Source: Candidatus Acidulodesulfobacterium ferriphilum (GTDB lineage: Bacteria; SZUA-79; Acidulodesulfobacterales; Acidulodesulfobacteraceae). From it: 64,000 nucleotides of DNA. The notes beneath the pieces were generated by a model, which did not search any database, was not told the origin of the DNA, and was given only the letters and a program-made list of their open reading frames with translations. The first letter of the stretch is position 1. Each line of letters opens with the position of its first letter. Shown here in pieces: positions 34 to 24,182 of the stretch. The position numbers were made by a program, and so were the translations under genes. The stretch spans positions 124,001 through 188,000 of the forward strand of contig SGBD01000001.1 of the NCBI GenBank assembly GCA_004195035.1. The letters run 5' to 3'.

Positions 34-510
34 ATGAGGCTTTCATCAAAGGGACAATATGCGGTAAGGGCTATAATCGATTTATCGTATTATTCTAAAA
101 ATAACCTTATACCCATCAGTTTAAAAGATATAGCCGAAAGAGAATCGATTTCTATCCACTACCTGGAGCAGATATTTTTTACATTAAAAAAAGCGGGCAT
201 CGTTAGAAGTTTAAGAGGGCCGAATGGGGGATATGTGCTTAACAAGAAACCATCGGATATCCTGATAGGCGACATAATAGCTTCCGTAGAACCCATTGAA
301 ATAATCAGCTGTATAAGTAAAGCTAAAAATAAAAAAGAATGCGAGAGAAAATCTATCTGCCTTGCTTTCGATATGTGGAATTCAATTTCTACCAAAATAA
401 CCGGGTTTTTAAATTCGATTACGATAGAAGATGTTATAAATGAATATAAGCAAAAATCTAATAGGAAATTACTGGAAAAACCCGCAAAGATTAGCGCAAA
501 AAATTGCTGA
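34..510 (+). CDS. Rrf2-family transcriptional regulator (IscR-like)
   Basis: This is a 158-residue Rrf2 protein. The winged helix-turn-helix covers about residues 1-70, including the family-typical GPNGGYVL wing at about 62-69. Three cysteines (93, 103, 109) follow, as in the Fe-S-sensing members IscR and NsrR; the spacing of 10 and 6 residues differs from the 6/6 of E. coli IscR, so the cluster type is uncertain. It lies 75 bp upstream of a cysteine desulfurase, which suggests control of Fe-S or sulfur-transfer genes. The start is preceded by GAGGTG at 11-base spacing, and the upstream 33 bases contain two TTTGCAA units that could be a binding site. Confidence 0.9.
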   Translation: MRLSSKGQYAVRAIIDLSYYSKNNLIPISLKDIAERESISIHYLEQIFFTLKKAGIVRSLRGPNGGYVLNKKPSDILIGDIIASVEPIEIISCISKAKNKKECERKSICLAFDMWNSISTKITGFLNSITIEDVINEYKQKSNRKLLEKPAKISAKNC

Positions 511-585: not shown

Positions 586-1755
586 ATGCCGAGAATTTAT
601 TTAGATTATAATGCTACAACGCCGTTAGACCCGATAGTTTTGGAAGAGGTGATTAATACATTAAAAAACTTTCAGGGGAATCCCTCAAGCGTATATGAAG
701 AGGGAAGGGCCGCAAGGATTTTAATAGAAGATTCGAGGGATTTCGTTAAATCTTTTTTGGATGCGGGCGGGGAGGGTGAAATAGTTTTTACCTCATCCGG
801 TTCGGAATCGATTAATCTTGCAATCATCGGAGCGGTTTACGCATATAAAAGGCTTAATAAAAATAAAACTCCCCATATAATTACATCTCAGGTAGAGCAT
901 CACGCGGTGCTTAATACATTTAAATTTCTGGAAACCCAGGGGGTCGAGACAAGCTACATCGGCATTAACGAATTTGGCGAACTCATTATAAACGACCTTA
1001 TTTCAAGTATCAAAGAAAACACTATTTTGGTTTCCGTTATGGGGGCGAATAATGAAACCGGCACAATATTCCCTTTAAAACAGATACTTAAAGCGGTAAA
1101 AAATGCAAAAGATAATATCTTATTTCACAGCGACCTGGTTCAAATTATCGGAAAAAGCGGTTTTAGCCTGAAAGATATTCCTCTCGATTTATGCAGTTTC
1201 TCGGGACATAAATTTTATGCGCTCAAAGGGTGCGGGGCATTGTACATAAAAAAGGGGGTAAAAATAGACCCTGTAATATACGGCGGACATCAGGAAAGAG
1301 GCTTAAGGGCCGGAACGGAAAACACGGCAGGGATTGTTTCCATTGCGAAAGGGCTCGGCGTTTTTAAAAACGGCATGGATGATGAACTAAAAAGGATAAG
1401 CGTTTTCGGAGGCATTTTCTTAGACAAACTTTTTTCGGCTATAGAAGGAATCAAGTTAAACGGCCATCCGGTAAACAGGCTCAAAAATACCGTAAATGTC
1501 TCTTTTGACGGCGTTAAAGCAGAGTCTTTATTATTTAACCTCGACCTTTACGGAATAAGCGCATCGGCGGGTTCTGCCTGTAATGCGGGGGCTATTTCTT
1601 TGTCCCATGTTTTAAGAGCGCACGGCTATGATATAAAAAGAATAGAATCGGCCATTAGATTCAGTATAGGGAGATTTACGACTATGGATGACATAGATTA
1701 CGCGATAAGCGCAATAAAAAAGGGGGTATTAAAACTTAGGGCAAATCCCGTATAA
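586..1755 (+). CDS. iscS: Cysteine desulfurase, canonical (NifS/IscS type)
   Basis: This PLP enzyme takes sulfur from cysteine as a persulfide for Fe-S clusters and tRNA thiolation. It is 389 residues, the normal length. The PLP lysine is present in SGHKFYALKG (K209), as are the aspartate and glutamine of HSDLVQ (183 and 186), the histidine of SQVEHHAV, the NNETGT motif, and the catalytic cysteine in the loop AGSACNAG near the C-terminus. It sits between an Rrf2 regulator and mnmA, so sulfur transfer to MnmA for 2-thiouridine is the likely main task. No IscU is adjacent. It contrasts with the second NifS near 22.4-23.6 kb, which lacks the lysine. Confidence 0.93.
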   Translation: MPRIYLDYNATTPLDPIVLEEVINTLKNFQGNPSSVYEEGRAARILIEDSRDFVKSFLDAGGEGEIVFTSSGSESINLAIIGAVYAYKRLNKNKTPHIITSQVEHHAVLNTFKFLETQGVETSYIGINEFGELIINDLISSIKENTILVSVMGANNETGTIFPLKQILKAVKNAKDNILFHSDLVQIIGKSGFSLKDIPLDLCSFSGHKFYALKGCGALYIKKGVKIDPVIYGGHQERGLRAGTENTAGIVSIAKGLGVFKNGMDDELKRISVFGGIFLDKLFSAIEGIKLNGHPVNRLKNTVNVSFDGVKAESLLFNLDLYGISASAGSACNAGAISLSHVLRAHGYDIKRIESAIRFSIGRFTTMDDIDYAISAIKKGVLKLRANPV

Positions 1756-1789
1756 AAATTATTAAGTTTAACGGTATTTGATTATATGG

Positions 1790-1809
1790 ATTCCCGCTTT
1801 TGCGGGAAT
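1790..1809. repeat. Short hairpin copy of the GGATTCCCGC repeat family
   Basis: Arms ATTCCCGC and GCGGGAAT flank a TTTT loop, a perfect 8-bp stem. It is the same core as the longer MITE-like copies at 14.8, 21.4, 24.8, 40.0 and 48.9 kb. It lies between the cysteine desulfurase and mnmA, over the first of two candidate mnmA start codons. Confidence 0.8.
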
Positions 1810-1824
1810 GGCAAGCCAATAAAA

Positions 1825-2907
1825 ATGTTTATAAAATCCAAAAGAACGGTTGCGGTGGCGATGTCGGGAGGCGTTGACAGTTCCGTCAGCGCAATAATAC
1901 TTAAAGAAAAGGGGTACGGGGTAATAGGGGTTTCGATGCACCTATTGAATGCCGGCCATTCCGAAGCAAAAACATGCTGCAGTATAGACGATATTCTTGA
2001 TGCTAAAAAGGTATGTGTCAGGCTCGGCATACCCCATTTTGTCATAAATCTGGAAGAAGAGTTTAGAACCTTCGTTACCCTTCCTTTCGTCTCCGAATAT
2101 ATTAACGGGAGAACCCCAAATCCCTGTATTTCATGTAACCGCATTCTAAAATTCGATATTTTATTAAAAAGAATTAAGGAATTAGGCGCGGAGTTTTTAG
2201 CGACTGGACATTATGCACGGATAACAAAAAATAAAAACGGGCAATATTTCCTTTTAAAGTCAAGGAATGTTCTTAAGGACCAGTCTTATGTCCTTTACAA
2301 TTTAACCCAGAACAGCCTTAAAAGCATTATTTTCCCCGTGGGCGGCTTTGACAAGGAATATACAAGAAAAATCGCTTTGGAAGCGGGTTTTAGCCAAATA
2401 TCAAACAAAAAAGACAGCGTGGATTTATGCTTTATTTCCGAGGGAACCTACTCCGGATTCATCGAAAAACAGATTAAACTTTCTAAAAATAAGGGGCTTA
2501 TAAAAAATTTAAGGGGCGATATTGTAGGCGAGCACAACGGCATTTTTAACTATACGGTCGGGCAAAGAAAGGGGCTTGGCTTACCTTCAAAATCGCCCTT
2601 ATATGTCGTAAAAATATCTGCGGATACCAACGAGATAATTGTCGGAAACTTGGAAAGTTGCTATAATAGCGAATTATATATAAAAGATTTTAATTTTATT
2701 AACCCTTACGGCGGGGCGGAGCTTAATAAAATGGATTTAACCGTTAAAATAAGATATTCTTCGCCGGATTATAAATGTAAAGCCTTTGTTTTGAAAAATG
2801 GGGAGATTAAAGTATTATTTGACGAACCCGTCAAATTTATAACCCCGGGACAATCCGCAGTTTTATATTCGGGGCTTAAGGTTGTCGGCGGCGGAATAAT
2901 ATCGTAA
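1825..2907 (+). CDS. mnmA: tRNA-specific 2-thiouridylase MnmA
   Basis: MnmA thiolates U34 of tRNA-Glu, -Gln and -Lys using ATP and a persulfide relay from a cysteine desulfurase. The PP-loop AMSGGVDSS is at the N-terminus. The two catalytic cysteines are in NPCISCNR and DLCFISEG, and GQRKGLGL is also conserved. I place the start at 1825, giving 360 residues. An in-frame ATG at 1786 would add 13 residues ([13 protein letters not shown]) encoded mostly by a repeat hairpin, and known MnmA proteins begin only about 5-12 residues before AMSGGVDSS. Neither start has a good ribosome binding site. The gene is 69 bp after the desulfurase, consistent with co-transcription. Confidence 0.93.
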
Positions 2908-19538: not shown

Positions 19539-20987
19539 TTAGAATGCGAAGTCAAGACCCGTGCCTACTGTATCAGCCTGGCTTTTGTTGGTTATTAAAT
19601 ATGCGAGATAAAGATGCGCGTTGTAAGCCAAGTTATATTCAACATTAATGGCAAACGCGTCTTTTATACCTTCATCACAAACACCGGCAAGAGATGTATT
19701 TGTATAAACACTGCCATATAATTGACTATTAACACATGTGCTTGTGGCATTACCGCCAGCCGCTTCTGCTAAATCTTTATGTGTCCATGAATACTGGGCA
19801 TAGTCGGCGGAAAGCATTAAGCCGTTACCTATCTGCGGCAATAAATATCTGCCATAAACTTCAAAGGTTGAATAGCCATTGCTTGAATTAGAACTACCTA
19901 CAATAGTGCCGTCAGGAAGTGTTTCATTTGTAGATGATAGAGATGGATTCCCATATGGATGGTTGTCACTCTGAACCATGTATGTCAAACCCAATTCATA
20001 AATGTCATTTGCAAGGTCAACATCCACGCCATTTACAGTAACCCTATTAGTCCATGATCCAGCATTTCCATTTAAAGGTTCGGCAACCGTTGCGCCGTAA
20101 TATCCAAACTCAAGCTGACCCATAGGAATTGGATAATATTCTTTTAACTGATAAGAATATTCCATTGCATTAGATACAGATTTATCTGTGGTCACATGAT
20201 TTACCAACTTGGTGTAATACGCTGCTTCGCCTGTTCCCGCCCCTGCATCATTCGTAACCGTTACTTTATACCACAAATGATAGCCCGGCGTTCCGTAAAG
20301 GGCAAAACCTGCGTTTCTGGCATGAATTAAAGATGCACCTTCTCCACCACCCTGGTTATCAACAGTTAATCCCTGCCCGTTTCCTGCCGGCCCGCCAAGG
20401 ATATAGAACGGCATCTGCCTGTAAAAATACGGGCTTGCAGTTGTTACCTGACCAAGTTTTAAATTAAACAGGTGCGACGGAGCGCCAAAACCGGAGCCTA
20501 AGCCGTTGATAGACGCGAATATCTGTTTGCCGTTAATATTACCCTTTCCTGCGCCAAATCCATAATGAACATAAAAAGATAAGGAATCCGCAAGAGGCGT
20601 ATATAACTTAAATGCGCCCGCATCGACCACATCTACGCTTGCGCCGAATGCGTCGGTTGCCGAACTGACATTTTCATTGGTGTAGTGCTGATAGCTGATA
20701 ATCGGCTCGACCATTATCGGAATCGGCCATGGGTTCGGAAGGCTCAAACCTTCGGTTATCTGCGTTGCATCAGACGGAGTTCCGTTTGTTCCCGGAAGTC
20801 TGAAGCCGTTTCTCCAGAATGCCCTGCCGAACGGGTTTAAGTTTGGAAATACCGTATGGCAAACTGCGCATGAAAAATGATACTTTTGAGCAAAAGCGGG
20901 AATTGCGTTTGCTTTTTTCGGCGCGATAGCAAAGGAGAACGCCAAAATAAACAAGGCAACCATAGTTACTACTAATTTCTTTTTCAT
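19539..20987 (-). CDS. Outer-membrane monohaem cytochrome-porin fusion (Cyc2-like)
   Basis: The 482-residue protein has a signal peptide (to about residue 28), a single c-type haem motif CAVCH at 40-44 followed by FPNLNPFGRAFWRNGF, then about 420 residues of alternating beta-strand character ending in phenylalanine (GTGLDFAF), the usual signature of outer-membrane barrels. This architecture, one N-terminal haem joined to a porin, is that of the Cyc2 family of Fe(II)-oxidising proteins and related cytochrome-porins. Assignment to true Cyc2 is tentative. It is a single-gene unit with its own terminator and a long upstream region. A role in exchanging electrons with extracellular iron is inferred. 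Confidence 0.82.
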   Translation of the reverse strand: MKKKLVVTMVALFILAFSFAIAPKKANAIPAFAQKYHFSCAVCHTVFPNLNPFGRAFWRNGFRLPGTNGTPSDATQITEGLSLPNPWPIPIMVEPIISYQHYTNENVSSATDAFGASVDVVDAGAFKLYTPLADSLSFYVHYGFGAGKGNINGKQIFASINGLGSGFGAPSHLFNLKLGQVTTASPYFYRQMPFYILGGPAGNGQGLTVDNQGGGEGASLIHARNAGFALYGTPGYHLWYKVTVTNDAGAGTGEAAYYTKLVNHVTTDKSVSNAMEYSYQLKEYYPIPMGQLEFGYYGATVAEPLNGNAGSWTNRVTVNGVDVDLANDIYELGLTYMVQSDNHPYGNPSLSSTNETLPDGTIVGSSNSSNGYSTFEVYGRYLLPQIGNGLMLSADYAQYSWTHKDLAEAAGGNATSTCVNSQLYGSVYTNTSLAGVCDEGIKDAFAINVEYNLAYNAHLYLAYLITNKSQADTVGTGLDFAF

Positions 20988-21674: not shown

Positions 21675-21899
21675 CTATTTTTTTACATAAACTATGTACT
21701 CAGGAAGGCTTATTTCATAAGACAGGAACTCGTGGTTAGTTTTTTTGCAGTAGCTTTTTAAATCCTCTACGATACCCTCGTCCGAAGCCACGACCTTCAG
21801 TACGGAACCCTCGGGTATGTTTTTAAACTCCTCCGCCACCTTCATGATAGGCACCGGGCAGGATAAACCGAATGTGTCAATCTCGTAATCGTGCTTCAT
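21675..21899 (-). CDS. TusA-family sulfur carrier protein
   Basis: The 74-residue protein has the TusA/SirA signature: a cysteine in LSCPVPIMK (C14) followed by a two-layer alpha/beta fold. TusA proteins pass persulfide sulfur from cysteine desulfurases or Dsr/Hdr proteins to acceptors. It lies 6 bp after iscU and is part of nifS-iscU-tusA. Given the lysine-less NifS upstream, this protein might bring sulfur to IscU from another source. Whether it acts in tRNA thiolation, Fe-S assembly or dissimilatory sulfur metabolism cannot be told here. Confidence 0.88.
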   Translation of the reverse strand: MKHDYEIDTFGLSCPVPIMKVAEEFKNIPEGSVLKVVASDEGIVEDLKSYCKKTNHEFLSYEISLPEYIVYVKK

Positions 21900-21905
21900 A
21901 ATCTT

Positions 21906-22352
21906 TTACGCATGCTCGAGTAAATCGTGTTCGTTCTCGTCATGCTCCGGCGTTTCCACCCTGCCTATCGGTCCCTTACCCGCCTTTCTTGCCTTGTAAT
22001 CCTCCACGGCAAGATGAAGCGCGTCCGCGGCAAGATTGGAGCAGTGCATCTTAACGGGGGGAAGCCCGTCTAAAGCCTCGGCAACAACCTCGTTAGATAC
22101 TCTTTCCGCCTCTTCGAGCGTCTTTCCTTTTACAAGTTCGGTTACCATTGAACTTGTTGCGATAGCCGCTCCGCAGCCGAATGTTTTAAATTTTATATCG
22201 TCGATTTTATCGTCTTTAACCTTTATATATATTTTCATTATATCGCCACAGGTCGGATTGCCGAGTTCCCCTACCCCGTCCGCATTTTCGATTTCTCCCA
22301 CATTTCTTGGATTTTGAAAGTGATCCATAACTTTTTCCGAATATACCGGCAT
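21906..22352 (-). CDS. iscU: Fe-S cluster scaffold IscU/NifU-N
   Basis: The 148-residue scaffold keeps the three ligand cysteines, in GNPTCGD, TFGCGAA and KMHCSNLA, and has LPPVKMHC, where the family's chaperone-binding LPPVK motif sits. A tail of about 20 acidic and histidine-containing residues (VETPEHDENEHDLLEHA) extends beyond the usual end. It follows the second nifS by 43 bp and precedes tusA. It should build [2Fe-2S] or [4Fe-4S] clusters. The sulfur donor is in question because the adjacent NifS lacks the PLP lysine. Confidence 0.93.
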   Translation of the reverse strand: MPVYSEKVMDHFQNPRNVGEIENADGVGELGNPTCGDIMKIYIKVKDDKIDDIKFKTFGCGAAIATSSMVTELVKGKTLEEAERVSNEVVAEALDGLPPVKMHCSNLAADALHLAVEDYKARKAGKGPIGRVETPEHDENEHDLLEHA

Positions 22353-22395: not shown

Positions 22396-23592
22396 TTATA
22401 CTTTATTTTTCTTTTTAACCTCTTCGTAAAGGGGCGACATTTCTCTTAATTTATTTACCACCCCCGGAAGCTCCTTTACAAAATAAGCGGCGTCTTCCAG
22501 CGAATTGTCCTCGCCCAAAGAAATAAGCAGCGAGCCCTGCGCGAGCGCAGGGTCAACCCCTATCGCGCTTAACACATGGGACGACTTTAAAATTTTAGAT
22601 GTGCAGGCTGAACCGCTTGCCACCATAATTCCGTTATTGTTCAGCCACATCAGCATCGATTCGCCCTCGATATATTTAACCACGAAGTTTAAATTGTTAG
22701 GGAGTCTTTTTTCGGGATGCCCGTTAAGATATACCTCGTCTAAGGAACCCAATACCCCGCTTACTATATCTTTTTGAATAGGTAAAAGATGCGCCGTCCT
22801 GTCCTTTAACTCTTTTTTTGCCAGTTCGCATGCAACGCCGGCGCCCGCAACGGCAGGAACATTCTCCGTGCCGGCCCTTCTTCCGAACTCCTGAATGCCG
22901 CCGTCTATTAAAGGCATTATCCTGATTCCCTTTTTAAGATAGAAAAGCCCCGTTCCCTTCGGACCGTAAAATCTGTGGGGAGCGGCCGAAAGCATATCGA
23001 CGCCCATCTCTTTGACATCGGTTTCGATAAAGCCGCATGAAGTATTTGCATCGGTGTGCATGTACGCCGCCGAGTTTTCATGAACTATTTTGGAAATTTC
23101 TTTAATATCCTGAATGGTGCCGATTTCGTTCGATGCGTGCGTTATGCTGACAAGAATCGTATCCTTTCTTAAAGCGTTTTTGACGTCCATAGGGTCAACC
23201 GAACCGTATTTGTCAACAGGGACTTCGCTGACCTCAAAACCAAGTTTGGCCAAAGCCTTAACGGCGTTTAAAACGCTAAAATGTTCTATTTTAGAAACGA
23301 TTATATGTTTTCCTTTATCCATTCTGGCAAAAGCCGTTCCTTTTATCGCAAGATTGTTAGATTCGGAACCGCTCCCCGTAAATATCACCTCGTTACCCGC
23401 CGCATTTAAAAGCTCCGCCGCCTGAAGCCTTGCCTTGTTCAACGCCTCTCTCGGCTCGTCTCCCAGCGTGTGAATGCTCTGCGGATTGCCGTATTCCTGC
23501 ATAAAAAAGGGCTCCATAGCCTCTTTTACCTCCGGTCTCATCTTAGTTGCCGCAAAATGGTCAAAATTTATTATCTTCACTTTTGCCTCCAA
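22396..23592 (-). CDS. NifS/IscS-like protein lacking the PLP lysine (K to R)
   Basis: The 398-residue protein is a clear cysteine desulfurase homologue, with SKIEHFSV, ASNEIGTIQ, RAGTENVPA and an active-site loop cysteine C330 in ASGSACTSK. But the motif holding the Schiff-base lysine reads APHRFYGPKG: arginine 207 (codon AGA) is at the lysine position. The residue equal to E. coli Gln183, usually in DAVQ, is threonine 184 (HTDANT). Activity as a normal desulfurase is therefore doubtful. Archaeoglobus fulgidus IscS also lacks the lysine and works with IscU as a cluster-assembly partner. The order nifS-iscU-tusA supports a sulfide-using assembly role (inference). Confidence 0.9.
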   Translation of the reverse strand: MEAKVKIINFDHFAATKMRPEVKEAMEPFFMQEYGNPQSIHTLGDEPREALNKARLQAAELLNAAGNEVIFTGSGSESNNLAIKGTAFARMDKGKHIIVSKIEHFSVLNAVKALAKLGFEVSEVPVDKYGSVDPMDVKNALRKDTILVSITHASNEIGTIQDIKEISKIVHENSAAYMHTDANTSCGFIETDVKEMGVDMLSAAPHRFYGPKGTGLFYLKKGIRIMPLIDGGIQEFGRRAGTENVPAVAGAGVACELAKKELKDRTAHLLPIQKDIVSGVLGSLDEVYLNGHPEKRLPNNLNFVVKYIEGESMLMWLNNNGIMVASGSACTSKILKSSHVLSAIGVDPALAQGSLLISLGEDNSLEDAAYFVKELPGVVNKLREMSPLYEEVKKKNKV

Positions 23593-23792: not shown

Positions 23793-24182
23793 CTACTTTA
23801 ATGAGTCTAAATAGGACGCAAGCTCAAAAAGCTCTTTTTTGGAAAGCATTTTGTGGTCAGGCATAATAGCCATATATGTTTTGCCGTTTATTTTCACCAT
23901 GGAACCTGGTTTAAAATGCTTTGCGGGCGTCGCAATTTGGACTTCAAGCCATTTAATAGAATGTTTAAGCGCTCCTTCTTTCGAAAGGTCGGGACCGACA
24001 TTGCCGCCCTTCCCGTTTATTGCGTGGCAGGCAAAACAATCGATGCCGTTTTTGTGGGAATGAATGAGTTCGGCTCCAAGCTGCGCGGCCGATAACTTAA
24101 CAGGAGCAGTAATTGCGTGAACGACGATATAACCTATAACAATAACAAGAACGATAAAAATAATCGTAAAACCCTTTTTCAT
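23793..24182 (-). CDS. Membrane-anchored monohaem cytochrome c
   Basis: The 129-residue protein has an N-terminal hydrophobic helix (about 4-24) with no obvious cleavage site, then one cytochrome c domain: haem motif CFACH at 49-53, GKGGNVGPDLS, and methionines in MAIMPDHKML as candidate sixth ligands. The fold matches class I cytochrome c. It should face the periplasm and carry electrons, possibly linked to the outer-membrane cytochrome-porin 3 kb away (inference). It follows apt by 18 bp and ends at a palindromic terminator. Confidence 0.9.
   Translation of the reverse strand: MKKGFTIIFIVLVIVIGYIVVHAITAPVKLSAAQLGAELIHSHKNGIDCFACHAINGKGGNVGPDLSKEGALKHSIKWLEVQIATPAKHFKPGSMVKINGKTYMAIMPDHKMLSKKELFELASYLDSLK

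Follow-up and report, generated by a model that had tools for sequence, protein, structure and literature searches.

A NifS/IscS homologue without its PLP lysine in an operon with iscU and tusA: a candidate sulfur relay for iron-sulfur cluster assembly in Candidatus Acidulodesulfobacterales

A 64,000-nucleotide stretch of the genome of Candidatus Acidulodesulfobacterium ferriphilum (the window) contains, on its minus strand at 22396..23580, a gene encoding a 394-residue homologue of NifS and IscS that lacks the lysine to which pyridoxal phosphate (PLP) is normally attached. The gene was defined by its open reading frame, the only one at the locus since the plus-strand frame is full of stops, and by Pfam and NCBIfam profiles. 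The protein matches PF00266 with 229 bits, and its best NCBIfam match is TIGR03402 (NifS) at 443.5 bits, below the equivalog cut-off of 530.75. Translation probably starts at the GTG at 23580, which is preceded by the Shine-Dalgarno-like sequence TTGGAGG; the TTG that opens a longer, 398-residue reading frame is a doubtful start because it belongs to this same Shine-Dalgarno sequence ahead of the GTG. Residues R207, T184 and C330 of the 398-residue frame correspond to R203, T180 and C326 of the 394-residue protein, the numbering used here for the lysine-less NifS.

Two further genes follow on the same strand, iscU after a spacing of 43 bp and tusA after another 6 bp, so that the three form an operon in the order nifS-iscU-tusA. 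The IscU/NifU_N scaffold (21906..22352, minus strand) keeps the equivalents of C37, D39, C63, H105 and C106 together with the LPPVK motif. The predicted sulfur carrier TusA (21675..21899, minus strand) matches PF01206 with 71.8 bits and carries the expected CPxP motif as CPVP. The operon is flanked on the minus strand by a gene for a small c-type cytochrome-like protein upstream (window 23793-24182) and by one for a 482-residue exported CxxCH protein downstream (window 19539-20987); the linkage of these two genes to the operon is kept in most genera of the order, the exception being genus g6.

The active site of the lysine-less NifS was compared with that of Escherichia coli IscS, using E. coli IscS and IscU reference sequences on which the key residues fell at their known positions. 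The site of the PLP lysine, E. coli K206, is occupied by R203 (codon AGA, 22972..22974, minus strand) in the motif APHRFYGPKG, and the site of Q183, which contacts O3' of PLP, by T180 (codon ACT, 23041..23043, minus strand) in the motif DANT. Where E. coli has R354, the arginine that binds the carboxylate of the substrate in the IscS family, there is a leucine, L352 (codon CTT, 22525..22527, minus strand), and the equivalent of S203 is alanine. The equivalents of H104, D180, H205, T243 and N155 are retained, as is the loop cysteine that carries the persulfide, C326 (E. coli C328; codon TGC, 22603..22605, minus strand), and the C-terminal IscU-binding segment is present, as it is in lysine-less proteins generally. 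The initial annotation had described the arginine motif with its AGA codon, the DANT motif, the surviving loop cysteine and the operon with iscU and tusA, all of which are borne out by the minus-strand sequence; it had overlooked the change of S203 to alanine and, above all, the loss of R354. With neither the Schiff-base lysine nor the substrate arginine left, the protein is predicted not to carry out desulfuration, and we are highly confident that it is not a cysteine desulfurase. Its pocket may still hold pyridoxal or pyridoxamine phosphate non-covalently, since H104 and D180 are invariant.

These replacements are fixed features of the order Ca. Acidulodesulfobacterales, whose members are acid-mine bacteria that reduce sulfate and fix nitrogen, the sulfate reduction pathway being reported for the order in PMC6776010. 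All 27 distinct orthologues of the order, among them those of Ca. Acididesulfobacter diazotrophicus and SZUA-79, have arginine at the lysine site, encoded by AGA in 16 and by AGG in 11, and all 27 have leucine at the R354 site. The Q183 site is threonine with two exceptions that carry serine or alanine, the S203 site is alanine in 24 of the 27, and no variation is seen in the loop cysteine, H104 or D180. Relative to the window copy, dN/dS ranges from 0.024 to 0.095 in those cases where an estimate of dS, itself near saturation, could be obtained. The sharing of arginine by every orthologue, its two codons and a dN/dS below 0.1 show that the change from lysine is not private to this genome, and a sequencing error is thereby excluded, as is the private mutation that the initial annotation had named as grounds against its proposal.

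The lysine-less state extends well beyond this order. An alignment of lysine-less proteins was used to query 386 genomes of bacteria and 300 from around an archaeal relative, with one genome per species, and 174 distinct homologues were read, chosen by score rather than as a random sample. The PLP lysine is missing from 74 of them, 26 or 27 of which belong to the order; the others come from archaea and from 21 further family groups of bacteria. Its place is taken by D, N, Q, R, S, V, H, T or G, so that a special catalytic role for arginine is ruled out as a general explanation. R354 is absent from every one of the 74 lysine-less proteins and present in 99 of the 100 that keep the lysine, while homologues of both kinds retain the persulfide cysteine, H104 and D180 without exception. 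The loss of lysine on which the initial annotation had centred is real, but other losses are linked to it, and the arginine that replaced it is not itself distinctive. The single lysine protein without R354 (L171, 2491-3660 in genome G126) has leucine in its place, and no other lysine protein lies near tusA, which is 1.3 kb away from L171; this protein is possibly an intermediate between active and dead forms of IscS. In a quick tree built without the active-site columns, the lysine-less proteins fall into clade A, which is Archaeoglobus-like and mostly has aspartate at the lysine site, and clade B, which holds the lysine-less NifS of the window and L171; a single lysine-less clade, and with it one origin, was not rejected (AU p 0.233). 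The Archaeoglobus chain 4eb5 was placed outside the tree by BLAST only, its best matches lying in clade A.

Linkage to tusA separates the two kinds of protein. Within the order, tusA is linked to the lysine-less gene at all 23 loci with more than 1 kb of flank, and the triad with iscU occurs in two gene orders, split by genus. For the wider comparison we counted same-strand neighbours within 3 kb at loci flanked by 1 kb or more, with the order cut to four representatives. By this measure tusA lies near 32 of 43 lysine-less loci as opposed to 1 of 86 lysine loci, and near none of the 29 lysine loci that have an adjacent iscU (Fisher p 9e-20 and 2e-11, respectively, with ancestry ignored in both). 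A dsrE2-like gene (PF13686) accompanies 23 of the 43 lysine-less loci and 0 of the 86 lysine loci. The linkage holds through several gene orders, namely tusA-dsrE2-iscS-iscU, dsrE2-iscS-iscU-tusA, iscS-dsrE2-tusA, iscS-iscU-tusA and iscU-tusA-iscS. The window operon has no adjacent dsrE2, but dsrE2 and further copies of tusA are found elsewhere in the genome. Neither gene was found beside nine well-flanked clade B loci. In genome G030 a wider flank revealed dsrE2 and tusA beyond the distance first searched, so that a short flank accounts for some of the absences; in four further clade B cases tusA was still lacking after widening or lay only farther off. Because the lysine-less proteins form just one or two clades, all of these associations rest on few independent origins, and phylogenetically independent contrasts number only one to three, too few for a test of any power. 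We found no report in the open-access literature of a lysine-less IscS linked to TusA.

The scaffold encoded beside the lysine-less NifS appears to have no counterpart in these bacteria. Its gene is the sole NifU_N gene of the genome; across the order NifU_N was matched in 18 of 19 genomes, once in each except for one genome with two fragments, and the profile search gave no NifU_N match in the nineteenth. IscU partners of lysine-less IscS keep all of their ligands. SufB and SufD were detected in none of the 19 order genomes and in all 14 control genomes, and they are likewise missing from 30 of 40 further genomes that have a lysine-less (or arginine-less) IscS. The C-terminal domain of HscB was not detected in six order genomes, the E. 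coli control being positive. A hidden second iron-sulfur system in the genome of the window is ruled out by the lack of SufB and SufD and by the single IscU, and a third class V aminotransferase (C1:451177, L003) was rejected as a desulfurase, being of alanine-glyoxylate type by eye. The operon of the lysine-less NifS and IscU thus appears, from gene content, to be the only scaffold-based iron-sulfur system of the order. In an acid-mine metatranscriptome of the order, nifU and nifS both rank within the 20 most abundant transcripts, and sirA (tusA) genes likewise feature in the top lists (PMC6776010); its authors attribute this to the maturation of nitrogenase. With a single NifU_N gene in each genome, the abundant nifU transcript probably comes from the operon discussed here, the nifS copies not being told apart.

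A second NifS homologue lies at 586..1755 on the plus strand, preceded by a gene for an Rrf2-family regulator (34..510, plus strand) and followed by one for the tRNA 2-thiouridylase MnmA (1786..2907, plus strand), both assigned by eye and both conserved as neighbours. The initial annotation had called this enzyme fully canonical. Its catalytic residues are indeed complete, with the PLP lysine, Q183, R354 and C328 all kept, but its motif is GHKFYALKG instead of GHKxYGPKG and the IscU-binding C-terminus is missing. In E. coli IscS, residues 379-391 are in contact with IscU, which no longer binds once residues 376-404 are deleted (PMC2854127). The canonical NifS stops short of this SPLWE-type segment in all nine relatives compared, all of which keep GHKFY and have the gene beside mnmA and/or mtaB. 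The full Rrf2-NifS-MnmA/MtaB setting is seen in eight of the nine, the ninth (G004) having mnmA apart and on the other strand. The gene is not linked to tusA. The missing IscU-binding tail and the MnmA context suggest that tRNA thiolation is the most likely task of the canonical NifS, with IscU served by the dead enzyme. The canonical NifS, fully catalytic and encoded beside MnmA, corresponds to the Bacillus-type NifS-MnmA pair (YrvO-MnmA); the lysine-less NifS does not.

Taken together, these observations favour a model in which the lysine-less NifS is a catalytically dead IscS on which IscU docks and which relays to it sulfur that comes from TusA and not from cysteine; we give this reading a probability of roughly 0.6. 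The inactivity of the protein, the direction of sulfur flow and the source of the sulfur are what we infer. That the protein works with IscU in cluster assembly is very likely, and TusA is the probable sulfur donor, though with distinctly less assurance. In the proposed mechanism, a former desulfurase, without the lysine that forms a Schiff base with PLP and without a grip on the carboxylate of cysteine, would have been kept as a relay; it retains the dimer fold, the mobile cysteine loop and the IscU dock. Sulfane sulfur derived from sulfide, thiosulfate, polysulfide or another sulfurtransferase would form a persulfide on TusA, with DsrE2 assisting the loading in relatives. The TusA persulfide would then pass to C326 on the mobile loop, or straight to docked IscU, where the sulfur would undergo reduction and become part of a [2Fe-2S] cluster. 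C326 might also be a temporary ligand of the cluster, as proposed for Archaeoglobus IscS. The E. coli TusA accepts sulfur from IscS, so that linkage alone leaves the direction of flow unsettled, and the TusA-contact positions of E. coli IscS (45, 49 and 52) gave no clear signal in our comparison.

The closest precedent is the Archaeoglobus fulgidus IscS2-IscU2 complex (PDB 4eb5, 4eb7, 4hvk and 4r5f), in which IscS likewise lacks the PLP lysine, has leucine at the R354 site, keeps the loop cysteine and partners IscU. This IscS is reported to have no desulfurase activity, yet to donate a cysteine ligand to the IscU-bound [2Fe-2S] cluster (PMC7585200). It differs from the protein of the window in having aspartate in place of the lysine and asparagine in place of H205, which the latter keeps next to its arginine, and its nearest sequences are in clade A rather than clade B, although one origin is not rejected; we found no mention in the open-access literature of TusA linkage for it. 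The resemblance to Archaeoglobus and the supply by TusA that the initial annotation had suggested fit all of our findings, and the linkage to TusA proves general to lysine-less IscS. Methanosarcina acetivorans also has a lysine-less IscS1 beside IscU1, possibly of the Archaeoglobus kind (PMC7585200), but it has three IscSU copies and SufBC where the order discussed here has a sole scaffold system, and the neighbours of its pair are described just as genes of unknown function. E. coli IscS shares with the lysine-less NifS its fold family, its IscU and TusA partners and the C-terminal IscU-binding segment (PMC2854127); however, it is an active PLP-dependent desulfurase for which TusA is an acceptor, the reverse of the direction proposed here, and the full ISC system of the E. 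coli type includes HscB and HscA. The minimal SufBC/SMS system of Methanococcus maripaludis resembles our proposal in assembling clusters without a cysteine desulfurase, but on a different scaffold.

Free sulfide, plentiful inside the cell, might instead feed IscU directly, with the lysine-less NifS as a structural subunit that lends a cysteine ligand and TusA at work elsewhere. We regard this as unlikely, though it has the precedents of Archaeoglobus IscS (PMC7585200) and of M. maripaludis, which makes clusters from sulfide without a desulfurase (PMC10500019), and it suits a genome that has a full-score dsrA and an order for which PMC6776010 reports sulfate reduction. The absence of tusA from about a quarter of the well-flanked lysine-less loci also accords with it. 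The strong, repeated linkage to tusA and dsrE2 is limited, however, to iscS genes without the lysine or the arginine, and a full-score dsrA is absent from most lysine-less genomes tested: of the 30 whose IscS lacks the lysine (or Arg354), 5 have it, as against none of the 29 in which all hits are of the lysine type. The tie to dissimilatory sulfidogenesis drawn in the initial annotation is, on these counts, weak. Less probable again is that cysteine sulfur arrives in trans, the canonical NifS loading TusA or IscU on a docking platform provided by the lysine-less NifS; the catalytic residues and conserved HK motif of that enzyme would allow it, and the order has cysE and cysM (PMC6776010), but its missing IscU-binding segment, its constant place beside mnmA and/or mtaB and its lack of tusA linkage argue for another role. 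That the lysine-less NifS is still a desulfurase, with PLP bound non-covalently and R203 or another base giving slow cysteine desulfuration, is compatible with the surviving cofactor pocket but most improbable, in that the lysine, Arg354 and Q183 are jointly missing throughout the order and the lysine-less Archaeoglobus IscS is reported to be inactive (PMC7585200).

Textbook iron-sulfur cluster assembly begins with a cysteine desulfurase. A diazotrophic, sulfate-reducing bacterial order seems, by contrast, to run all of its scaffold-based assembly on a dead one, and TusA, an acceptor in E. coli, would here turn donor. We see an even chance of a broader proposition, that a cysteine-independent ISC pathway is widespread in bacteria and archaea, in which IscS without the lysine and arginine relays persulfide from TusA (and DsrE2) to IscU, and that some bacteria, the acid-mine sulfate reducers described here among them, have it as their sole iron-sulfur system. 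Archaeoglobus IscS, with lysine replaced by aspartate, is already known as a precedent; the bacterial spread, the linkage to TusA and DsrE2, the paired loss of the arginine and the sole-system status appear to be new. The linked loss of K206 and R354 offers a simple two-residue signature of misannotated desulfurases, and the linkage to TusA and DsrE2 makes the sulfur supply of Archaeoglobus-type IscS directly testable.

Several lysine-less loci showed additional features. In one member of the order (L025, genome G027) tusA and the lysine-less nifS occur without a detected adjacent iscU reading frame. A cysteine-rich small protein of about 65-75 residues recurs only beside lysine-less iscS (L211, L213, L217 and seven more); it gives weak YHS, TRASH and zinc-finger matches and, judged by these, could be a metal-binding partner. 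Finally, in a genome from the archaeal search (L222, 955-2517, G449), a large insertion of LAGLIDADG type, resembling an intein, lies within the IscU that adjoins a lysine-less IscS, between two matched NifU_N stretches.
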